Origin: Phycisphaerales bacterium
Lineage (GTDB): Bacteria; Planctomycetota; Phycisphaerae; Phycisphaerales; SM1A02
DNA length: 64,000 nt
Reading direction: 5' to 3'
Assembly: GCA_029242715.1 (NCBI GenBank)
Contig: JAQWTL010000007.1
Location: 62,001 to 126,000 of the forward strand
Made by a program: the position numbers and the translations under genes. The notes below the pieces were generated by a model. That model saw only the letters and a list, made by a program, of their open reading frames with translations, did not search any database and was not told the DNA's origin. This document shows positions 2,368 through 64,000 of this stretch, one piece after another (position 1 is the stretch's first letter; each line of letters opens with the position of its first letter).

Positions 2368-2527
2368 TGTGATCTCCGGAATGGTCGTTCTTACTGCCCT
2401 GATAAGGCGGCGAATCTTCGAGCGTAGGGCCACTGGACCGCTTAGGCAACCCCCTTGAGCCCCTTCATCGGGCAACTGCCACCCTCAGGACGATTCCCAT
2501 GCAGATCCGGGGCGTTTGAGGACTAAG

Positions 2528-4201
2528 ATGGGACCCATGGGGATTGGCCTACTGCTCCAGGAACGAGGACTTGTCAGCCGAGACCAGCTGGACGAGGCCA
2601 TCGAGACTCAGACCCGCACGGGTGAGCGGCTCGATCACGTGCTGGTCAGGCTTGGCTATGTACGAAGTGAAGATGTCCTGCAGGCCATTGGCCAGCAGTT
2701 CTCCATGCCTATCGTGGACCTCTCCTCTCGGGAGGTCTCACAGGAGACGCTGGGACTTCTCCCACCCAGGCTCGTTTTCAAACAGCAATGTGTTCCGATT
2801 GAACGACAAGGGACCACCCTGCGGGTTGCAACCTGTGACCCCTTTGAACTGACCGCCTTCGATGAGCTCCGATTGCTCACCAATATGGATATCGAACTGG
2901 TTCTTGCAGATGAAGCCGATCTGCGAAAATTCATTCGAACCCACTATGGCGTAGCAGGCGACACCCTTGAAGCCCTTGGAGCTGGGCAGGACACCTCGGA
3001 TGCTTCAGCCAGCATCACTGATGATGCGCTTGATCAAGCGGAACAGGCCAGCGTCATCAGGCTGGTAAACGACCTGCTGGTAGAAGCGGTACGCGAGCGA
3101 GCAACCGACGTACACATAGAGCCCTACGAAGATTCTCTTGAAATCAGATACCGGGTTGATGGAATTCTCGTCCAGGCCGGCGTCCCCGCCACGGTCAATC
3201 AGTTCCGCAATGCCATCGTCAGTCGCTTGAAGATCATGGCCAACCTGAATGTGGCTGAAAAACGGGTCCCACAGGATGGACGGATCACTCTGAGACGTGA
3301 TGGGCGGGAATATGACCTGCGTGTTTCAATCATCCCCATGCTGTTTGGCGAAGGAATCGTCATCAGAATCCTTTCCAAGAGTGCTGCACTCCTGGCGCTT
3401 GATGAGTTGGGCATGGAGCTTGAGGTCAAGCAGCATTGGGATCACCTGATCACACGTCCTCACGGAATCCTCCTTGTCACCGGCCCGACAGGCTCAGGCA
3501 AATCGACAACTTTGTATGCGTCTCTCAACCAGATCGTTTCAGATGAAGTGAAGATCATCACGGTCGAGGATCCTGCGGAATACAACATCACTGGTGTGAA
3601 CCAGATCCAGGTTCAACGCGATGTTGGTCTTGATTTTGCAGCTGGCATGCGTTCCATCCTTCGACATGACCCCGATGTGATCATGGTGGGTGAGATCCGT
3701 GACCAGGAAACCGCAGTCATGGCGGTACAGGCATCCCTGACCGGCCACCTCGTTTTCAGCACGCTCCATACCAACAATGCCGCGGGTGCACTGCCTCGGC
3801 TCCTGGACATGGGTATCGAGCCTTTTCTTGTTTCAAGCACGATCGAAGGCGTCATTGCTCAACGGCTGGTTCGCAGAGTCTGCAGCCATTGCAGAATGCC
3901 ATGGCGACCTGAATCATCCGAACTGCCGATGGGCTGGCCTGTTCCTGAAGAACCCCTCTACCGTGGAGAAGGTTGCCGTGAGTGCCGGAATACCGGATAC
4001 CACGGCAGGCTCGGGATCTATGAACTCCTTCGAATCAATGAACATCTCAGAGAGCTGATCATCCAGAGGGTCAATGCTGGCCGACTCGCAGAGGCTGCTG
4101 AGGCCGATGGTCTTCTGCATGCCCTGGTCGCCAGCGGTCGCCTGAAGGTCGCTGGTGGGCTGACCACGCCTTCTGAGGTCGCCAGGGTCACCCGGGACTA
4201 G
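2528..4201 (+). CDS. GspE/PilB-family secretion or pilus assembly ATPase
   Basis: A 557-residue cytoplasmic ATPase that would power a type II secretion or type IV pilus-like assembly. Residues 1-145 form an MshEN/GspE N-terminal domain (two helical repeats such as GLVSRDQLDEAIETQ). The motor follows: Walker A GPTGSGKST near 319-327, Asp box ITVEDPAEY, Walker B DPDVIMVGEIRD and the His box LTGHLVFSTLHTN. A zinc-binding pair of CxxC motifs (CSHC ... CREC) sits after the motor, as in GspE and PilB. The ATG at 2528 is preferred over the in-frame TTG at 2516, because GAGG lies 6 bases before the ATG. No gspF/pilC or platform gene is adjacent, so assignment to T2SS or T4P is open. Confidence 0.93.
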   Translation: MGPMGIGLLLQERGLVSRDQLDEAIETQTRTGERLDHVLVRLGYVRSEDVLQAIGQQFSMPIVDLSSREVSQETLGLLPPRLVFKQQCVPIERQGTTLRVATCDPFELTAFDELRLLTNMDIELVLADEADLRKFIRTHYGVAGDTLEALGAGQDTSDASASITDDALDQAEQASVIRLVNDLLVEAVRERATDVHIEPYEDSLEIRYRVDGILVQAGVPATVNQFRNAIVSRLKIMANLNVAEKRVPQDGRITLRRDGREYDLRVSIIPMLFGEGIVIRILSKSAALLALDELGMELEVKQHWDHLITRPHGILLVTGPTGSGKSTTLYASLNQIVSDEVKIITVEDPAEYNITGVNQIQVQRDVGLDFAAGMRSILRHDPDVIMVGEIRDQETAVMAVQASLTGHLVFSTLHTNNAAGALPRLLDMGIEPFLVSSTIEGVIAQRLVRRVCSHCRMPWRPESSELPMGWPVPEEPLYRGEGCRECRNTGYHGRLGIYELLRINEHLRELIIQRVNAGRLAEAAEADGLLHALVASGRLKVAGGLTTPSEVARVTRD

Positions 4202-4377
4202 TCCCCATTGAGGCCTGCCCAGCCGCATGGGGCTCCATCTGGGCCTCACAATTCATGGGTTTGAAGGCCTGAAAGGGCCATCTCCTTGACTCTGGAGGCC
4301 CTTGGGGGGAAACTTCCTCGTTCATCAGTGTTCCGCTTCGGAACCACTCGATGTGGCTTCCCATGGAGACCAGTGTC

Positions 4378-5751
4378 ATGGCCATTCGATCCACGGCCGG
4401 AACAGGCGTCGTTGTTGCTCTGGTGGTATTTATCATCCTCAGTGCAGCCCTGCTTGCAACGACCATCATCTTCTACAGCCAGCGCGGCAAGGCTGTTGAG
4501 GAAAAGACCACGGCTGATTCCCAACTCAACAAGTTGGCGAGTGCCTCTGAACGATCTGGCGACGACTACCAGGCTATTGAAAGCCAGTCCGGTCGCAACA
4601 GCGTCTTTGGCTATCTCAACGAACAGCATGACCAGTTGATGGCCTATGTCGGCCGCGAAATGGAACTGGAAGCACTCAAGGAGGCATTCCAGACTTCACT
4701 GGATGTCCCCGAAAATGGCACACTCTGGACCCACCTCCAGACAACCCAGCAACAACTTCAGTCAGACGCCGATTCAATCAACCGTCTCAAGACAACCGTT
4801 CAGGATCTGCAGGAAGAAAAGGAAGACCTCCTTGGACGCCTTCAGGCTGCAGAACGCGAACGTGATGAGTCCCTGGAAGCTTCCGTTGATCGGCAGCTTG
4901 ATGGAATCCGAAAAGCTGACTCGAACTACGAGCAACAAGTTGCCCAGGCACTTGATGGACTTGATCAGGCCAAGGAGCGTTATCGAACTCGATACGTTGG
5001 GCAAATCCGAGACCTTGAAGGCGAAGTAGACAGACTCAACAGGGAGAACGTCGAAGGGGAAAGCCGAATCGAGGAGCTCCAAAGACAGATCAATCGCAAT
5101 CGAATCCAGGCAGAGGATCCCGCCCATCTGGCAGATGGTGAAGTGATCGAAGTGACTGGTCGCGGAGACCAGGTTTACATTGATCGGGGCAAGACGGACC
5201 AGATCGTTCTTGGCATGACCTTCGAGGTCTACGACCATGCCGCCCAGCTACGACCGGATTCCGAAGGCAACTTCCCTCGGGGCAAAGCAAGTATCCAGGT
5301 CGTTAAAGTCGGCGAAAGCACTGCTACAGGAAAAGTGATCCGGGGCACCCGGGGACGACCCGTCGTCAGAGGTGACATTGTTGCCAATGCCATCTATGAC
5401 CCGAACTACACCTTCAAGTTCCTGGTCCATGGCCGCTTTGACGTGAATGGCGATGGCATTGCAACACTCGAAGAAACGGATTTCATCCGGCGACAGATCG
5501 AGGGTTGGGGCGGCAAGGTGATCGTCGAAGACCGCATTACTGGCGATCTGGATTTCCTCGTGCTCGGTGTCGAGCCTCCAATGCCATCTAATCCCGATGC
5601 CAATGCAACAGAAGATGAGATCCAGCAGGTACTGGACATGGGAAGGATCCATGACAAGTACCAGGAGCTCTTTGATGCTGCAGGCAGAGCGGATATCCCG
5701 GTACTTAATACCAACCGCCTGTACATCCTTACTGGCCAGAACGGGCTTTGA
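4378..5751 (+). CDS. Membrane-anchored coiled-coil protein with FlgT-like and BRCT-like C-terminal regions
   Basis: A 457-residue protein of unknown function. Residues 8-35 form one transmembrane helix (VVVALVVFIILSAALLATTI). About residues 40-250 are a long, highly charged coiled coil (QLQSDADSINRLKTTVQDLQ and similar). A beta-rich segment follows (DGEVIEVTGRGDQVYIDRGK ... GMTFEVYD), like the C-terminal domain of FlgT-type proteins. The last 110 residues carry IRRQIEGWGGKVIVED ... LDFLVLG and IPVLNTNRLYIL, the pattern of a BRCT fold. The ATG at 4378 has GGAG 9 bases upstream; an in-frame ATG at 4351 is possible. It lies 176 bases after the GspE-like ATPase, so a role in the same envelope machine is plausible but unproven. 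Confidence 0.75.
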   Translation: MAIRSTAGTGVVVALVVFIILSAALLATTIIFYSQRGKAVEEKTTADSQLNKLASASERSGDDYQAIESQSGRNSVFGYLNEQHDQLMAYVGREMELEALKEAFQTSLDVPENGTLWTHLQTTQQQLQSDADSINRLKTTVQDLQEEKEDLLGRLQAAERERDESLEASVDRQLDGIRKADSNYEQQVAQALDGLDQAKERYRTRYVGQIRDLEGEVDRLNRENVEGESRIEELQRQINRNRIQAEDPAHLADGEVIEVTGRGDQVYIDRGKTDQIVLGMTFEVYDHAAQLRPDSEGNFPRGKASIQVVKVGESTATGKVIRGTRGRPVVRGDIVANAIYDPNYTFKFLVHGRFDVNGDGIATLEETDFIRRQIEGWGGKVIVEDRITGDLDFLVLGVEPPMPSNPDANATEDEIQQVLDMGRIHDKYQELFDAAGRADIPVLNTNRLYILTGQNGL

Positions 5752-42185: not shown

Positions 42186-43166
42186 TCACGGTCCTTGCGC
42201 TGGCTGGCCGATGACATCATTCTTCACGCGTTCCGACAGTGGTTTTTCTGCCATCACAGTCCGGCCCACGATCTTGATCATGCGGGCCCGCATGCCTTCA
42301 ACGCCAGGCACCTGAAATGGAAAACCATCAATCTGCCGCTGGATGTAACCAGGTGCACGCACTACCAATGTCGACTTGTGCACATTGATCGAGGCTGCGT
42401 CGCCACCATTAGCCTGCCAGGCCTCCGGCTCGATGTATGCCTGGAGTAAAAAGATCAGTCGTTGAAGATTTTCCTCTTCCAACTGCTCCCAATCCCAACT
42501 GCTTGGATGATCACCACCGCCGCCCCCGCCCCCGGAGCCGCCTCCAAATCCGCCTCCACCCCCGGCGCCTCCACTCCCAGCACCTCCACCAAATCCCCCG
42601 CCACCCGCTGTTCCTCCCAACTGCAACTCGGGTGGATTGTTGTAGTCAGGAATCAACATGATGATTTCTTCTACATCGTAGGTGCGGATAGTACGGAACC
42701 TGGCTTCATTCATGACCGACAGTGGGCCGACATAAACCATCCCCCATCGCAGTTGCCATGTGCAGGGCACCTGCCGACTTGAGCCACACTGGTCCAGAAT
42801 GTGCTCCAGGACATTGAGTGCCGGCATATCCTGAAAATCAAGCGTGATCTTGATGTCGGGATCAATTCCATCAAGCACCTTGTCATCCATCATGCTGATC
42901 TGGAATCGCGTTCCGATTTGCATGGCCAACCAATCCAGGGCTTCCTTGACCGGCATTTCATTGAATGTCGCGTCAACATCTGAATAGATGAGCTTGGTCA
43001 GGAGGACCGCATCTTCAGAAAGCAGTCCACCTTGTGAATCCCTCCGCTCTTGTACCTGCTTCCAACGATCATCAAGCCGCTGTGCGATTGTTGGAACCGA
43101 CACGGCCAGCCAGCAGATCACTGAAACCAGAATCATCAGAATCGAGACGGGACGATCTTTGAACAT
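42186..43166 (-). CDS. STN/secretin N0-like domain protein without a secretin barrel, Gly-rich
   Basis: A 326-residue exported protein with signal sequence VSILMILVSVICWLAVSVPTIAQ. Residues 65-140 (FNEMPVKEALDWLAMQIGTRF ... ITLDFQDMPALNVLEHILD ... VYVGPL) fit the STN/secretin N0 fold. A Gly-rich run at about residues 183-217 follows (almost pure Gly with Ala, Ser and Phe). Then comes an N1-like segment (NVHKSTLVVRAPGYIQRQI). There is no beta-barrel secretin domain, so it cannot form the outer-membrane pore alone. AGGAG lies 6 bases before the ATG. It is preceded on the same strand by the MacB-like permease, after 73 bases. Confidence 0.75.
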   Translation of the reverse strand: MFKDRPVSILMILVSVICWLAVSVPTIAQRLDDRWKQVQERRDSQGGLLSEDAVLLTKLIYSDVDATFNEMPVKEALDWLAMQIGTRFQISMMDDKVLDGIDPDIKITLDFQDMPALNVLEHILDQCGSSRQVPCTWQLRWGMVYVGPLSVMNEARFRTIRTYDVEEIIMLIPDYNNPPELQLGGTAGGGGFGGGAGSGGAGGGGGFGGGSGGGGGGGDHPSSWDWEQLEEENLQRLIFLLQAYIEPEAWQANGGDAASINVHKSTLVVRAPGYIQRQIDGFPFQVPGVEGMRARMIKIVGRTVMAEKPLSERVKNDVIGQPAQGP

Positions 43167-57262: not shown

Positions 57263-57820
57263 TCAGCCGGTATTGCCCAGCCTCACAAGCCGTTGGTCAG
57301 GAACGCATTTGACTGGAGGGCCGCCAGCAGCAGGCTGGAAGGTGGCTTCGATATTGACAACTTTCGCTGGCATGGGTCCATCGCCGATCTTGCGAACATC
57401 CAACTGGAAGCGATAGCCGGGAAATCCGAACATGGTCGGCCCCTCGGCGGCCCCGGTCTGGTCTTGATTGAATCGCCACTTCAATATCGATACATCTGAT
57501 TTGCTGTCCGTATGAAGTGGAACCGCCTCGAACTCGAAAGTCCCAGGGACGATCACCGGCTCGGGTCTTGGCTCACTGAAGAGAACGACTGAGACATTGA
57601 TGAGATCGGCCTTGCCATCACCCTCGATGTCTTCAGCCTTCGGAGCAACGATGAGCGCCATCCGGTTTGGTCGCACATCCCGAAGGACCTTCATCACCTT
57701 TGGCTCAGGCCTCGGGGGCGTATATCGCCGACGTGAGGTCTTGGTGGCATCTTCGCAACCAATTGTCAATGTGCAGGAGACAACCAGCAAAGCCAGCAAA
57801 GCCAGCGGGGCCCTACTCAT
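57263..57820 (-). CDS. Lipoprotein coupled to the giant secretin
   Basis: A 185-residue protein with signal LALLALLVVSCTLTIGC and lipobox TIG-Cys at about residues 20-22. The mature part starts basic and Pro-rich (RRRYTPPRPEPK), then is beta-rich (MALIVAPKAEDIEGDGKADL, VSVVLFSEPRPEPV, YRFQLDVRKIGDG). EGDGKADLINV has a calcium-site look. The ATG overlaps the secretin stop (ATGA), so it is translationally coupled. A pilotin-like role is possible by position and lipidation, but no pilotin family is recognised. Confidence 0.75.
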   Translation of the reverse strand: MSRAPLALLALLVVSCTLTIGCEDATKTSRRRYTPPRPEPKVMKVLRDVRPNRMALIVAPKAEDIEGDGKADLINVSVVLFSEPRPEPVIVPGTFEFEAVPLHTDSKSDVSILKWRFNQDQTGAAEGPTMFGFPGYRFQLDVRKIGDGPMPAKVVNIEATFQPAAGGPPVKCVPDQRLVRLGNTG

Positions 57821-60800
57821 TCATCGCCCCGATCCGATTCAGAGTCCGGCTTGTCCTCTGGCAGAACGCCTTCGTACTTCTCCGCCTCGATGAGATCCTT
57901 GAGCTGGAGTTCGTTGCCGTCCTTGTCAAAGATGCCTTCCCCATCAAATCGACCCTTGCGAATCTGCTCACGAAGAGATTCTGGAACAGAAATCAGATCG
58001 ACCTGCTGGTTGGTCAGTTCGGTGATGCGTCCGTGGTCTGCGGGGCTCCTGATCACATGCGGCGTAAGGACGATGACCAATTCCGTCCGACGAAGATTTT
58101 CCGTCTCGCCCCTGAAGAGGAAGCCGATCAGAGGCAGATCACCCAAGAACGGAATGGACTGCTCGTTGTACTCGTATTCCTCAAGAATCAGCCCACCCAG
58201 GATGATGGTCTGACCGTCATAGACCGTCACCGTCGTATCAGCAGTACGTTGTTGAATACGAGGCGTCGTAACGCCGACTGCCGGCTCATCAAGCTGATCC
58301 GTTACACGAGAAAGCGTTGGTGTCACATCCAATCGAACAAATCCATCCGGATTGATCGATGGCGTGACATCCAGGATGACGCCTGTCTCCTTGGCCTCAA
58401 GCGGAACACTGACAAGGCCCGTGTCGTATGTCTGGGAAGCAGTCGGGAGGTAGATCGTCTCACCCACATTGATCGTCGCCTGCTCGTTGTTGGCTGTCAT
58501 GATCGAAGGGTTGGCGAGAATATTGAGTCGATTCTGCTTCTCGAGCGCTCGCAACATGATGTTGAAGTCGCTGGAAGCAATGGAGAGCGTCGGCGCGCCC
58601 ATGGCCATCGTTCCAGCTACCAGGTCATAGAGGCCGCCAAGACCAACGGTCCCGATGTCGCCCGAAGCATCGACACTGATGCCCCAGTCAAACCCACCTT
58701 CAAGGGTCACCTCTGCCAGCATCAACTGGATGAGAACCTGAGGAGGATCGACATCAAGTTGCTTGATGACTTCCTCAATGCGATCCATGTACCGAGGACT
58801 GGTCGACACGAGTAACGTGTTCGATTTCTGATCGCCACGAATCGTGATCTCACGCTCGAGCAGGCGTGCTGCTGATCCGATCTGGTCGCCGCCAAGAGTC
58901 TGTACCAGTTTGCGTTGCTCCTCGGCGACGAAGTCACCAAGAACACTTGCCACACTCTCGGCCGTTGCATTTCTCAACTGGTAGACGAAGGTCTCCCGTT
59001 CATTGGCCTCCAGCTCATCCAACTCGTTCACGACGCTCTCGACAAGGTCCAGATAGGCCGGGCTTCCTGATACAAGCAGACTGTTCGTTCGACTGTCAAC
59101 CGTGATTGCCAATTGCTGTCTTGGATCCGGAACTGCAGTGAGCTCGGTACCAGAGACAATGCTCTCGGCACCAGGAATGGTTGCGATGCCCTCTATTGCC
59201 GGCATATCGAATCCATCGGTGTCACGGGGCTTGAGGACAAGCAGGTCCTCGCCTTCATCCAGGCGGAAGAGGTCGTTAAGAACCTCTCGCATGGCGAGTG
59301 CATCCGCATTCTTCAGCTTGAAGATCCGAATGTTCTTGGAACCCTCGGAAGAGTCATCGAGATCCCGAATCATGCGACCGATCAACTCGATCGATTCATG
59401 GGGCGCCCGAACGATCACGGTGTTTGTCCGGATATCAGGCGTAAGACTGATTGATTCACGGAGAGCCGCACTGACCTGGAACTCTGTCTCGCCCAGTGCA
59501 TCTTCAATTTCTCGAACATAGCGAAGCACCGTGGTCTGCTGAGTGCTGCCCCGGCGAGATCCGATGCCACGTCCTGACAGAACTTCCTCGATAAGCCGAA
59601 CTGTTTCCAAGGCATTAGCTGACTTCAGAGGGAAGTGACGGATTTCGATGATATAAGCAGGACGCGCGCCATCAAGGCGAGCCACAAGCGTTCGAATCTC
59701 GTCAATATCCGAACGTGGTGCGCTGACCACGATGGAGTTCAGCCTGGGTTCGGCAGTAACACGAACTGTTCCAGAGCCTCGGTTACGGTTCGCTTCTTCG
59801 ACGTACAAATCATCCAGAACATCAACAAGCTCGTCGGCAGAACTGGAACGCAGCGCGAGAACTTCGAACTCTCGACCTGACGCACTTTCAGCTTCCGCCT
59901 CAACAAGCAACGTCACCATTTCCTGAACGATCATCAGGTTTTCCTGGCTGGCCGCAACGATGAGGCTGTTACTGGAAATTTCTGCAGTCACGGAAACGCG
60001 GTCAGAAGCTGTTGCCGAATCACCAAGTGATTGACGTCTGTCCCGCATCAACTGCTGGAGCCGCGGCGCCAATCGATCAGCATTGGAACCGGATGCCACA
60101 GGAATGACATGCAGATCAACCGCTTGTGCAATTGGCGTTGCCAACAGCTGCTTGACCAGATTCCGGATAGACGCCAGGTCTTCGGGGTCAGCCGAAACCA
60201 GGAGACTGCTGGTACGAGGATCGGTCAGAACCAGCGGCTGTCGTCGATCCTTGAGATGGCCGGGAAGATCTGCGTACCGACGTTCCATGATCGAGTTGAT
60301 GGCCGAGGCAAGGCGGTCAGGGTTGGAGTCCCCTACCCCGACGACTTCGACGAGACCGTTCTCAAGAAGATTTGGCTCATCCATCTGCTCAACAAGCATC
60401 TTGATGACGTCATAGGACTCATTGCCAGCGGCAATCACCAGTGTATTGGTGCGATCATCGGGAATAATGGTGGCACGCTGCAGATCCGCCGTCTCGGGCT
60501 CGACGAGCCGCAGACGCTCAACCCTTGCATCCATCAATCGCTGTACCACGTCAGCAAGTCGTGATGCTGAAGCATGGGCCACGGTCACACGACGGATTTC
60601 CTGAAGATCAGGATCCATTTCCGAGTCAAGGGCGCCCAGCAGACTCTCAACGATCGTGAAGCTGCGGGAGCTGGTCGTAACCACCAGCGAGTTCGTTCGC
60701 TCATCAGCCTGGATGACGACACGGTCCTCCTTGCGGACCGAGCCCGAAGCGACTTGCTGACGGAAGAGATTTCCGATGGTTGATGACAAGCGAGCTGCCG

Positions 60801-63800
60801 AAGCATGCTCTACGGGATAGATTCGAACCGTGGAAGCAGGTGACGCCGCCTCGACATCAAGCATCGCGATCAATTCGGATACGAGATCCAGATTGATGGG
60901 CGGTCCGACCAGAACCAACGCTCGCATCTCAGGCTGAGGCTCGATGATCAAGCGATTCATCGGCTGGAAGACTTCCGATTCGATGACCCGGGAGGTTTCC
61001 ATACGGGCCATTCGAATACGGCCAACCTGTTCCTGAAGCGGACCTGCCTGTGGAAGATCCGTAGCGCCCTCAACCAGCACTCGATTCAAGGTGCCTGCAA
61101 GTTTCTCCGCATCAGCCCAAGTTAGTTTGACCAAGCGTGGCTCGATCCATCCGGATTGCAGATCGGAATCGAGCCGTTCGGAGATCACTTCGACAGCGGC
61201 AACAGAATCTTCCTTGCCCGCGATGATGACCGTATTTGTTCGCTCATCTATTGCAATTGCGATCTGATCCATGAAGGCACGGCCCAGCATGCCTGCTGGA
61301 ATACCGAAGAGCTTGGCACCAGGAACACCTCCCAGAGCCTTGCCCTGCTCAAACAGGGTTCGCACGATTCGGGCAAAGTCGTTGGCCGCAATATTTTCCA
61401 GTGGGAACATTCGGACGATTACGGCATCCGTAACCGGAAGCTGATCAAGCATGGCAACCAGTTCGATGATGGCAGCGACATTGGAATCACTGGAACTCAC
61501 AAGCAACGCGTTGCGTGTCTCATGAGGAATGATCCGGATCGGCATGGTGAGATCCAGGCCCACATCAGGACGGTTCAAACCATCCTGGTGCACTGCCAGT
61601 CGACGGACCTGTTCCTGAACAGCCTTGGCCATGGGAGTATTGACCTGCTGAGAGCCAGGCGAGAGCACCTGCTCCAGAAGTGTGGCAATGGCCCCCGCTT
61701 CTGCATTCTTCAGTAGAACAACTTCCATTTTCGCAGTCGCGAGTTCTGGCTCGGCATCCAACGCCTTGAAGATGCCCGTCACGGTTCGTTCGTCTGCAGG
61801 GGAAGCTACGACAACAACGGCACTGCGACCACGCAAAGGGGAGACCCGGATGGGCTCGCCGAGCAAACGCATGGCCGAACCTTCTGGCTGGGCGCGATCC
61901 AGGCCAATGGTCTTGATGACACGAATCGCCTCGGCAGGATCCACATGCTCGAGCTCGATGATGAAGATGCCAAGGCCCGACGCAGGTGCCAGATCATCAA
62001 GTTGAGCCACCGTGTCCCTGATTTCATCTACAAGATCCGCGGTCGCCGCAACGACAAGGCTGTTCGTTGCCGAATCGATCTCCACTTGCAACGGAGCATT
62101 GAGCGTCTTGGCACGAGTAGCAAAGGTCGAACGGATCGCGTCTGCAACGCGTGCAGCAGGCGCATCCTTAAGGCGAATGACATACACGCCCATGCCGCCA
62201 TCGTCACCGTGCTCTTCAAGCGCCTTGGCCAAGGCCATGATCTGCAGAAAATCCTCCTCCGGCGCACGGACGATGAGTGTGGATGATTCCACATCACCAA
62301 CGATCCGGAGATTGACTCGACCTTCTCTTGACGGCGTCTCATAGAGTTTTTTCACCGACTCTGCGAGGCGTTCCGGATTCGCAGTTCGAACAGGAATAAG
62401 TCGAGCCGGCGGCAAGCTGGCATGATCTGCAACATCCAATTGCGAAACGATGGTCTCGATCTTGCCCAGTGTCTTGCGGGTTGCTGACACCACAATCGAG
62501 TTCGTCAGAGGTTCTGCTGAAGCCCTGACCCAATCCTCCGCCTGGACCAGAACCGTCGGGGTCTCGATATCCTGGCGAGATCCATCGCGGTTCTGCGTAC
62601 GGTTTGTTTCCTGGTTGCTCTTGCCTCCACGCCTTACCTGCTGCTGAAACGCATCATTGATGGCCCGGGCAACAGAAACGGCATCGGCGTATGTCAAAGG
62701 AATAACCTTCAACTGGAGCGAGGCGTCGTACTGCTCGGCGTCAAGCTCCGTGATCAAGGCTTGAAGGGCGTCCCATTCCTTCGCTTCAGCCGAGATCACG
62801 AGACTGTTACTGGCGGGATCTGCCACGATCCTGACATTGAGTTTTGAAGGCGTGTCCGCATCCAGCGCGAATGGACCATAGAAGACCGTCAAGGCCTCCT
62901 GGACTTTCTCTGCTTCCGCGAATTCGAGTGGGATGAAACGCGTGCTTCTATCCGTGACTGATGGCTGATCAAATTCCGTGATGATTGTCTCGATCTGCTT
63001 CAACTGATCCGGTGTTGCCGACACGATCAGTTGGTTCTCGATCCGGTTGTAGGAAACACGGGGATTGGGATCGCCCATGGTCGGAAGGATGTCAAACAAG
63101 TTCCAACGCACATCCTCGGCCAATGCATGTTCCAACTGGAAGATCCGGTATTCGACCTGAATGGCTGCCGGCTCCTCATCAAGCTGTCGAATCAATGTCT
63201 CGATGACTTCAAGGGAAGCTGCAGGCGCTGTGACTACCAGGCTGTTGGAGCGATCGTCGGCAACTACTCGCCCACGCACTTCCACAGCAGGCTTGTCGGT
63301 ATCGATGCGAACAGAGACACCACGGGATTCACCCGTAGCATCCAGTTGGAGTGTTTCTCGCAGGATGGCAACGACATCGCGGGCCCGAGCGCCTTTAAGT
63401 GCGAACGTCTGGATCATGGACTGGTCCTCTGCCAGTTCCATCTCCAGTTCGTCAATAAGCGTTGCGATTTCCTCGTGCTTGTTTGGCAGGGCTGCAACAA
63501 TCAAGGCGCCCCGAGTGTTGTCGACGATGATTTCGACATCCTGATCCGTACGAGGCTGCCACCATCGGCGGCGGTCGTTCGTGCCATGCAGATCATTGAT
63601 GACATCTTCGAGCATGTTCACCGAAACGTTATCTGCCCGGTAGACCTTCATTTCCCGCTTGTTGCTGGGCGTCTTGTCGGCATCCATGACGTCAACGATC
63701 CGCTCGACCATCTCAACAGAGTCCTCACTGCCTGAGACCACGAGCGCATTGAGCCTGTTGTCAGGGTAGACAGCCATCCTGCCCTGCAATTTCTTGCGGG

Positions 63801-64000
63801 CTCCGGCTTCAAACCACCACCCACCTCCGGTGCCCATTTCAAGCTGGGACACCATTTCCTGCACGGTCTCAGCAATCTCCATGGCACGTGCATTCTCGAG
63901 CGGGATGGCCCTGATCTCGATCGATTCGGCAGCTTGTGGGCTATCGAACTGCTTGGCCAGTTGTTGAACCTGTACAAAATCCTCATCAGAAGCGGACACG
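57817..64000 (-). CDS. Giant type II/III-type secretin with at least 20 N1-like repeats (partial, 5' end outside window)
   Basis: More than 2060 residues, running off the right edge. The C-terminal 330 residues are a normal GspD-type secretin: VLIQLMLAEVTLEGGFDWGI, NRLNILANPSIMTANNEQAT, NVGETIYLP, GVILDVTPSINPDGFVRLDV, DGQTIILGGLI and IPFLGDLPLIGFLFR. Before it lie at least 20 tandem NolW/N1-like domains, each ending in a RTN-S-LVVSA motif (for example DERTNSLVVTT, DDRTNTLVIAA, DSRTNSLLVSG). Ordinary GspD has three such domains. The last 50 residues are acidic (DKPDSESDRGDE). No N0 domain or signal is visible because the start lies outside. It should form an outer-membrane channel with a very long periplasmic vestibule. 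Confidence 0.93.
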   Translation of the reverse strand, partial: VSASDEDFVQVQQLAKQFDSPQAAESIEIRAIPLENARAMEIAETVQEMVSQLEMGTGGGWWFEAGARKKLQGRMAVYPDNRLNALVVSGSEDSVEMVERIVDVMDADKTPSNKREMKVYRADNVSVNMLEDVINDLHGTNDRRRWWQPRTDQDVEIIVDNTRGALIVAALPNKHEEIATLIDELEMELAEDQSMIQTFALKGARARDVVAILRETLQLDATGESRGVSVRIDTDKPAVEVRGRVVADDRSNSLVVTAPAASLEVIETLIRQLDEEPAAIQVEYRIFQLEHALAEDVRWNLFDILPTMGDPNPRVSYNRIENQLIVSATPDQLKQIETIITEFDQPSVTDRSTRFIPLEFAEAEKVQEALTVFYGPFALDADTPSKLNVRIVADPASNSLVISAEAKEWDALQALITELDAEQYDASLQLKVIPLTYADAVSVARAINDAFQQQVRRGGKSNQETNRTQNRDGSRQDIETPTVLVQAEDWVRASAEPLTNSIVVSATRKTLGKIETIVSQLDVADHASLPPARLIPVRTANPERLAESVKKLYETPSREGRVNLRIVGDVESSTLIVRAPEEDFLQIMALAKALEEHGDDGGMGVYVIRLKDAPAARVADAIRSTFATRAKTLNAPLQVEIDSATNSLVVAATADLVDEIRDTVAQLDDLAPASGLGIFIIELEHVDPAEAIRVIKTIGLDRAQPEGSAMRLLGEPIRVSPLRGRSAVVVVASPADERTVTGIFKALDAEPELATAKMEVVLLKNAEAGAIATLLEQVLSPGSQQVNTPMAKAVQEQVRRLAVHQDGLNRPDVGLDLTMPIRIIPHETRNALLVSSSDSNVAAIIELVAMLDQLPVTDAVIVRMFPLENIAANDFARIVRTLFEQGKALGGVPGAKLFGIPAGMLGRAFMDQIAIAIDERTNTVIIAGKEDSVAAVEVISERLDSDLQSGWIEPRLVKLTWADAEKLAGTLNRVLVEGATDLPQAGPLQEQVGRIRMARMETSRVIESEVFQPMNRLIIEPQPEMRALVLVGPPINLDLVSELIAMLDVEAASPASTVRIYPVEHASAARLSSTIGNLFRQQVASGSVRKEDRVVIQADERTNSLVVTTSSRSFTIVESLLGALDSEMDPDLQEIRRVTVAHASASRLADVVQRLMDARVERLRLVEPETADLQRATIIPDDRTNTLVIAAGNESYDVIKMLVEQMDEPNLLENGLVEVVGVGDSNPDRLASAINSIMERRYADLPGHLKDRRQPLVLTDPRTSSLLVSADPEDLASIRNLVKQLLATPIAQAVDLHVIPVASGSNADRLAPRLQQLMRDRRQSLGDSATASDRVSVTAEISSNSLIVAASQENLMIVQEMVTLLVEAEAESASGREFEVLALRSSSADELVDVLDDLYVEEANRNRGSGTVRVTAEPRLNSIVVSAPRSDIDEIRTLVARLDGARPAYIIEIRHFPLKSANALETVRLIEEVLSGRGIGSRRGSTQQTTVLRYVREIEDALGETEFQVSAALRESISLTPDIRTNTVIVRAPHESIELIGRMIRDLDDSSEGSKNIRIFKLKNADALAMREVLNDLFRLDEGEDLLVLKPRDTDGFDMPAIEGIATIPGAESIVSGTELTAVPDPRQQLAITVDSRTNSLLVSGSPAYLDLVESVVNELDELEANERETFVYQLRNATAESVASVLGDFVAEEQRKLVQTLGGDQIGSAARLLEREITIRGDQKSNTLLVSTSPRYMDRIEEVIKQLDVDPPQVLIQLMLAEVTLEGGFDWGISVDASGDIGTVGLGGLYDLVAGTMAMGAPTLSIASSDFNIMLRALEKQNRLNILANPSIMTANNEQATINVGETIYLPTASQTYDTGLVSVPLEAKETGVILDVTPSINPDGFVRLDVTPTLSRVTDQLDEPAVGVTTPRIQQRTADTTVTVYDGQTIILGGLILEEYEYNEQSIPFLGDLPLIGFLFRGETENLRRTELVIVLTPHVIRSPADHGRITELTNQQVDLISVPESLREQIRKGRFDGEGIFDKDGNELQLKDLIEAEKYEGVLPEDKPDSESDRGDE
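58740..64000 (-). repeat. Tandem coding repeats of N1/NolW-like secretin domains (20 or more)
   Basis: Each repeat is about 70-150 codons. It consists of a strand-rich opening (hydrophobic I/V-P-L pattern such as VIPLTYADAVSVARAIND), a helix, a linker of variable length and the signature R-S/T-N-S/T-L-V-V-S-A followed by a helix ending in LD. The copies are diverged in sequence, so this is protein-level duplication, not recent DNA repeats. Inserts range from none to about 60 residues. Confidence 0.85.

Follow-up and report, generated by a model that had tools for sequence, protein, structure and literature searches.

The stretch of DNA analysed here, called the window, comprises 64,000 nucleotides of the draft genome of a Phycisphaerales bacterium (G000:C41:62001-126000; 3.2 Mb in 46 contigs) and holds the 3' part of a gene for a giant secretin, a real, conserved and extreme form of a known secretin type. 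The gene codes for a secretin (GspD) of a type II secretion system (T2SS), a function that is likely from its family matches and its neighbours. In the window, a single uninterrupted frame on the reverse strand (57817..63999, -) codes for the C-terminal 2060 amino acids (aa), residues 1822-3881. The gene extends 5462 bases past the window edge, to position 131462 of the same contig (G000:C41:131462), in agreement with the initial annotation of the window, which had described the N-terminus as missing. The whole protein has 3881 aa when read from its ATG start (L005 818-12463), inside an open frame of 3887 aa with no stops. It carries one Secretin domain, PF00263, at its C-terminal end (residues 3639-3805; window 58048..58548, -), with a score of 168.6 bits against a cut-off of 27.5 (E 1.2e-49).

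The N-module of a usual type II secretin consists of N0-N1-N2-N3. In the window part of the giant protein, the profile built in this study placed 20 complete consecutive N-type (Secretin_N) domains, nos. 21-40 of the protein, at positions 58732..63912 (-), and domain no. 20 (residues 1768-1849; 63916..64000, -) is cut by the window edge. These domains account for the 20 signature motifs previously noticed in one open frame. On the complete protein, Pfam recognised 36 Secretin_N stretches (E-value 0), not four or fewer, and our profile found 40 domains at E < 0.01, of which 38 also passed E < 1e-5. One extra diverged copy at residues 449-522 was seen by eye only, giving a total of about 41 and bearing out the earlier claim of at least 20 N1-like domains in a GspD-type secretin. 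The profile was iterated from the last domain, and its 10 training loci are among those scored later; the Pfam counts are independent. The median spacing of the domains is 80 aa across the protein, and neighbours are separated by 5 aa or less at every gap but one, while long insertions lie within some domains, such as residues 3379-3491. Near the N-terminus, residues 53-298 match solved GspD N0-N1-N2 chains in four entries (E 1.3e-6 to 2.7e-6), and residues 100-296 match 3ezj at E 7e-9. The GspD equivalog TIGR02517 scored 1147.7 against a cut-off of 351.35, a sum inflated by 23 repeated stretches. The PilQ subfamily model TIGR02515 gave a lower score (421.8 against 284.35), also repeat-inflated, over 6 stretches.

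The genes of the giant operon lie on the same strand in the order F (397 aa), G (198), H (266), I (163), J (233), K (517), L (496), M (390), D (3881) and a lipoprotein (185). F, G and K were named from matches above the Pfam cut-offs of T2SSF, T2SSG (PF08334) and T2SSK, and H, I, J, L and M from weak matches and position. The major pseudopilin GspG also exceeded the equivalog cut-off of TIGR01710 (93.1 against 88.85). No pilMNOP genes lie beside the giant secretin, whose neighbours are GspF, GspG and GspK by Pfam. The protein resembles ordinary T2SS GspD in its N0-like start, its predicted Secretin_N fold, its C-terminal secretin domain and its T2SS-type operon. It differs in having about 41 N-type domains instead of 3, in its length, and in the lipoprotein without a Pfam family that follows it.

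The draft state of the genome, in 46 contigs, would be compatible with an assembly or annotation artefact, a concern raised in the initial annotation. This explanation was ruled out and keeps practically no probability. Frames of similar length are present in genomes listed as a single contig (G033, G012 and G068, with open frames of 4856, 4634 and 3776 aa), orthologous domains are colinear in separate assemblies, the frame has no stops, and the ratio of nonsynonymous to synonymous differences per site (pN/pS) is well below 1 throughout. The frame is therefore genuine. The repeat profile gave 0 matches with shuffled versions of 51 secretins, and the same Pfam scan found 3 Secretin_N stretches in each of two ordinary controls, the normal-length GspD of a relative (L045) and the other T2SS-type secretin of the same genome (L091). 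A tandem DNA array was looked for in the giant gene with Tandem Repeats Finder (TRF) and none was found. When each repeat is paired with its most similar counterpart in the same protein, the median identity is 32% and the highest is 56%. The lack of a tandem array and the low repeat identity indicate that the array is old and not a recent product of slippage or assembly.

Related planctomycetes share these long frames, and their domains pair in order with those of the window protein. The closest named contig, 'Phycisphaerae bacterium isolate NAT149' (L047), codes for a secretin with 92% identity over the C-terminal 360 residues and 86.6% over 3761 aligned residues. Other near relatives are the marine planctomycete metagenome-assembled genomes SP4365 (L048; 75% over 3288) and ALOHA_ZT_39 (L049; 77% over 3289). 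Reciprocal best matches were found for 40 of 40 domains, all colinear, in G013, G033 and NAT149, for 38 of 40 in G063 (37 colinear) and for 32 of 40 in G012 (30 colinear). The corresponding numbers were 31 in G024, 30 each in G144 and G018, and 35 each in L048 and L049, both of which have their first domains cut off. The window protein differs from L048 and L049 by whole blocks of about 329 and 146 aa, equal to 4 and 2 domains. In G013 and its relatives, some of the extra domains resemble duplications of blocks of five domains; the identity of domains five apart is 54-60% in G013, G033 and G063 and 44% in G012. In the comparison with NAT149, the ratio of nonsynonymous to synonymous substitution rates (dN/dS) over the whole gene was 0.053, at a dS of 1.65 that is close to saturation, and pN/pS was 0.05-0.27 in each of 40 domains and 0.046 in the secretin core. 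Against L048 and L049, where dS exceeds 2, it was 0.06-0.40 in the 35 comparable domains, with core values of 0.22 and 0.19. Taken together, the one-to-one pairing, the block differences and the low pN/pS indicate, at the sequence level, that the array is old, grows or shrinks by whole-domain blocks and is maintained in every domain.

This pattern bears on the suggestion, made as an alternative in the initial annotation, that the repeats serve as a binding array. In such an array the N domains would provide numerous binding sites, whether for cargo, pseudopilus or polysaccharide, and length would be a question of capacity. The many similar domains, the long insertions in some of them (residues 3379-3491) and their KH-like fold would suit such a role. 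However, the domains share only about 32% identity with their best partners and are conserved position by position between species, unlike a pool of equivalent sites. This position-specific conservation and the placement of the array between an N0-like start and a secretin end fit a structural tower better, so we regard a binding array as quite unlikely.

The spread of the giant secretin was followed with its last 360 residues as the query. Across the order, 149 of 151 genomes gave some match, and 61 gave a strong match (E <= 4.7e-58) in a frame of 1519-5073 aa. Across the class, 129 of 298 genomes matched at E <= 1e-50, and in 102 of these the frame had at least 1500 aa; several of the shorter frames sit on small contigs. 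The first set of 51 secretins that were read comprised 8 of normal length with 3-4 domains, 5 with 12-15 domains (among them L086, cut at a contig end), 1 with 22 and 37 with 31-63, the last group being 3100-6150 aa long. The highest count, 63 domains, was found in G189, whose frame overruns the fetched stretch by a few residues. Median domain spacing in the long secretins of this set was 77-87 aa. No correlation between genome size and domain number was seen in the 35 frames uncut at the 5' end (Spearman -0.10, p 0.59; sizes rounded), and a coefficient of 0.91 was obtained in the 8 genomes of the window's own family, again with rounded sizes. T2SSK was dropped as a marker of co-occurrence, as many of its matches lay in short or unrelated-looking frames.

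A view drawn from 48 of 392 genomes (E <= 1e-40), that only the window's class has long secretins, was overturned by a second planctomycete class (118 genomes; centre G623), in which many frames of 1200-3270 aa occurred among the matches listed. Twenty of its loci were read, picked mostly for long frames and counted at a laxer E < 0.01: 14 have 7-13 domains, two have 31 (G740, G743) and four have 0-2. Of the last, G768 and G780 have no Secretin_N by our profile, and G780 carries T2SS-T3SS_pil_N by Pfam. In three second-class secretins Pfam found 24, 8 and 6 stretches against 31, 11 and 9 with our profile, which shows that profile counts run above those of Pfam. The giant secretin shares with these proteins the long GspD-type form and a homologous downstream lipoprotein, and differs from them in that 14 of the 16 long second-class loci have only 7-13 domains.

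In an unrooted maximum-likelihood tree built from 51 C-terminal regions, a branch with 100/99 support separates the long rows, 43 in number, from the 8 normal ones. When 20 second-class rows were added, the 16 long second-class secretins formed one clade (100/100) and the 8 normal rows stayed on one side of a branch (97/88). All 59 long rows, including the giant protein, lie on one side of a branch in the best 71-row tree, with weak support (47/69, and 52% of 200 bootstrap trees). Both trees leave out three distant long-branched paralogues, and L041 was not used for the secretin. The idea that all long secretins form one clade is weakened, since adding the second class, together with four short rows that are distant, lowered its support from 100/99 to 47/69; the joint branch may be disturbed by long distant rows. 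These values make a single origin of lengthening likely, as judged from the trees, within the first set and no more than possible for all long forms. Two 31-domain secretins from genomes of another planctomycete class (f122; L098 1335-11057, +; L099 1063-10872, -) show an unusually regular spacing of mostly 67-72 residues over about 20 domains and are possibly a separate lengthening. In addition, L105 1508-8458 (+) contains a 2316-aa frame that ends in a secretin domain, with a T2SS-T3SS_pil_N match and no Secretin_N match; its long N-terminal part may be partly a spurious open frame.

The last gene of the giant operon codes for a 185-aa lipoprotein (window 57263..57820, -), which overlaps the secretin stop by 4 bases and is a candidate pilotin or tower partner. 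It matched no Pfam family. A profile seeded with the window's family and iterated on frames of at least 100 aa within 1.5 kb downstream of the 51 secretins detected a homologue beside all 43 secretins of long or middle length and beside 2 of the 8 normal ones. These two, L083 (4e-9) and L088 (8.5e-5), both lie outside the class, and their rows are included in the final profile. In the second class the unchanged profile picked up a homologue downstream of all 16 long secretins (E <= 7.7e-10) but of none of the other 4 (E >= 0.0069); these E-values refer to small search sets. In total, the homologue lies downstream of 59 of 59 long secretins read and of 2 of 12 others. When 3819 frames of 100-400 aa, taken from the loci as a whole, were searched, the profile matched 82, never more than one per locus. 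All these counts come from related genomes and are not independent events.

An order-wide search, made with an alignment of 21 of 32 rows that left out the lipobox frame of L089 and ten others, found the lipoprotein in 59 of 61 genomes with a long secretin and in 6 of 90 without. It adjoins the secretin in 57 of the 59. In G096 and G030 it lies on a different contig, where in G030 it has a second secretin frame as its neighbour. As scored, five of these 59 matches cross one stop codon (G069, G040, G146, G044, G030). The search was incomplete, because its two misses include G006, whose lipoprotein is found by the downstream profile. Weaker matches, E 3e-11 to 1.6e-4, came from the six genomes in which no long secretin passed the threshold (G010, G025, G041, G094, G109 and G118); they could be relics, chance matches or a sign that the family has another use. 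A structure model of the lipoprotein reached a predicted local distance difference test score (pLDDT) of 70.1; its best structural match had a Z of 7.7, the top rows being mostly beta-sandwich proteins, and Foldseek returned no match for it at E <= 0.001. Judged by gene linkage, the lipoprotein is a previously unnamed partner family.

This linkage could also be read in terms of the crateriform structures of planctomycetes, with the long secretins and the lipoprotein as a structural fastener in fibre-bearing outer-membrane pits that touch the cytoplasmic membrane. In Planctopirus these structures are described as touching the cytoplasmic membrane, bearing pili-like fibres and being enigmatic (PMC5394234), and the long secretin and lipoprotein occur together in 16 of the 20 second-class loci read. 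The idea is attractive but weakened by isolates of Phycisphaeraceae, which are reported to lack crateriform structures as far as the descriptions in two papers go (PMC8882080, PMC7783415). Moreover, nearly all of the longest secretins read belong to the window's class. We therefore consider such a fastener very improbable.

Three other secretins were found in the same genome. The second T2SS-type locus, on contig C11, has T2SSE and T2SSF matches and a T2SSK match below the cut-off; its pseudopilin-like, L-, M- and C-position genes were named from position, and no separate GspG was picked out. Its secretin (L091) has 1002 aa and 3 Secretin_N domains, and GspD is the NCBIfam model that it matches best (score 324.9, cut-off 351.35). 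A pilus-type locus on C30, with a pilMNOP-like gene order named from position and sequence starts, has a 703-aa secretin with 1 Secretin_N domain, whose best match is PilQ (203.8 against 284.35). The third, an orphan of 995 aa on C46 (L093 4867-7854, -), gave no Secretin_N match, and its N-terminal part is repeat-like by eye. The window also codes for a 326-aa secreted-looking protein (42186-43166, -) with an N0/STN-like stretch seen by eye followed by a glycine-rich part; it had no Pfam or NCBIfam match at E <= 0.001. The initial annotation had proposed that the long secretin spans a wide periplasm such as that of planctomycetes. This is plausible as far as it goes and incomplete, since secretins with 3 and 1 Secretin_N domains in the same genome indicate that envelope width alone cannot set the length everywhere.

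For the AlphaFold2 model, five consecutive window domains were placed in one alignment with 20 further blocks of five domains each, taken from the window and from L047-L049. Three misregistered rows were left out, and an earlier 90-row alignment was discarded because of register slip between repeats. The model consists of five beta-alpha-beta-beta-alpha units (pLDDT 78.2, predicted template modelling score 0.62). The best structural matches of single domains are N domains from T2SS secretins, namely 5wln with Z 10.9 (2.2 Å, 68 residues) and 6i1x with Z 9.0 (1.0 Å, 57 residues), and beyond one domain 5mp2 was matched with Z 11.2 (5.3 Å, 176 residues). The KH-like fold of N domains is also visible, as KH family matches on the whole protein and as KH rows at Z of about 6. 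The model supports a predicted ring-builder fold for each N domain and says nothing on rings.

The N-type domains of secretins are ring builders. Given such domains, an N0-like start and an outer-membrane secretin end, a stacked tube would be the simplest product. The reading we favour is that the N-module was lengthened from N0-N1-N2-N3 to an N0-like start followed by about 41 beta-alpha-beta-beta-alpha domains, and that about 12-15 protomers stack these domains into a long hollow tower for the T2SS. The N0 end would lie near the inner-membrane platform (L and M with a presumed GspC function), and the barrel of the secretin would sit in the outer membrane. Such a tower would guide the pseudopilus and exoproteins through a periplasm whose local width far exceeds that of other diderms. 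With 2.5-4 nm assumed for each ring, 41 rings would reach about 100-160 nm; the upper figure was chosen from the 35-nm, six-ring PilQ including its secretin domain. The downstream lipoprotein may serve the tower, most simply as a pilotin or collar. Such towers would more likely stand at sites of widened periplasm than cell-wide, because ordinary secretins occur in the same genome. On balance, this ring-stacked tower with an extended N-module is fairly probable.

Several observations weigh against it. The AlphaFold2 model is that of a monomer and carries no estimate of inter-domain error, and its multi-domain superposition on solved protomers was poor, with a query-normalised template modelling score (TMq) of 0.13-0.27 for secretin matches at E <= 0.001 and a root mean square deviation of up to about 40 Å. 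With a TMq of 0.27 or less, the predicted arrangement of neighbours is either unlike that of solved protomers or unreliable. The N0 match by Pfam near the N-terminus stayed below its cut-off (16.4 bits against 27), as did the matches of GspF to the equivalog TIGR02120 (311.3 against 424), of the minor pseudopilins to NCBIfam models (GspH 20.0 against 80, GspI 30.6 against 44.35, GspJ 24.3 against 64.85), of GspL to PilM_2 (24.8 against 27) and of GspM to T2SSM (E 0.083). Unlike in an ordinary T2SS, no GspC or GspE was recognised in the giant operon. The secretins with ordinary domain numbers in the same genome show that other machines manage without towers.

The poor superposition slightly lowers the chances of a tower and raises those of loose, tethered chains, in which rings are formed only from N0 and the last few domains and the rest are flexible beads that tie the pore to the inner membrane over a variable distance. 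The same direction is indicated by blocks of 4 and 2 domains that separate close relatives (40 domains in one, 41 or more in another whose 5' end is cut off), by the flexible ring spacing described for Thermus PilQ (PMC5745081), and by the fact that the ring oligomer is inferred here. However, even spacing (medians of 77-87 aa) with gaps of 5 aa or less for all but one pair leaves little slack, single domains show the ring-builder fold, and each keeps its own identity. Tethered chains are thus unlikely, and a ring-stacked tower is preferred.

The lack of a recognised GspE in the giant operon makes a GspE/PilB-type ATPase in the window (2516..4201, +; 561 aa) a candidate motor. It carries an MshEN domain of the c-di-GMP-binding type, scored 599.2 against 630.25 with TIGR02533, and is one of 11 T2SSE matches genome-wide; that it serves the giant operon is only a guess. 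Its neighbour, frame 4351-5751, had no Pfam match. An HR-like end of GspM, seen by eye as a possible place for GspC, had no Pfam or PDB support; the GspC test is weak, because the proteins in the GspC position of L091 and L045 likewise escape Pfam.

The nearest parallel is PilQ of Thermus thermophilus, a protein of 757 aa whose six rings, called an unusual number, extend over 35 nm and are said to span most of a wide periplasm (PMC5745081, PMC4463427). The giant secretin is like it in that an N-module appears to be lengthened by added ring-building domains, in the case of PilQ in a host with a wide periplasm. It is unlike it in having about 41 N-type domains against six rings, and in belonging to a T2SS whereas PilQ serves the type IV pilus and DNA uptake. 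Since the 35-nm PilQ serves a periplasm of about 70 nm (PMC4463427), tower length need not equal periplasm width. The periplasm of the planctomycete Planctopirus can be 'greatly enlarged' (PMC5394234), and a secretin survey gave a mean size of 555 +/- 151 aa (PMC4827864). In a literature search, no title or abstract start described such a giant secretin; most subscription journals and bioRxiv preprints were outside its scope.

Our results also add the lipoprotein gene linked to long secretins, an unnamed partner family found by linkage and present in the second class as well. Secretins with 31-63 N-type domains would rank among the largest outer-membrane channels, this one at about 6.3 MDa with 15 copies assumed. 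More tentatively, the Phycisphaerae may possess the longest known secretin towers, with 30-60 rings, 100-200 nm and a lipoprotein of their own, in which a ring number set by blocks acts as the ruler of a locally widened periplasm beside machines of ordinary length. The giant secretin would thus offer a molecular handle on how planctomycetes run machines across an enlarged periplasm, with a ring count that can be compared with membrane distance across species.

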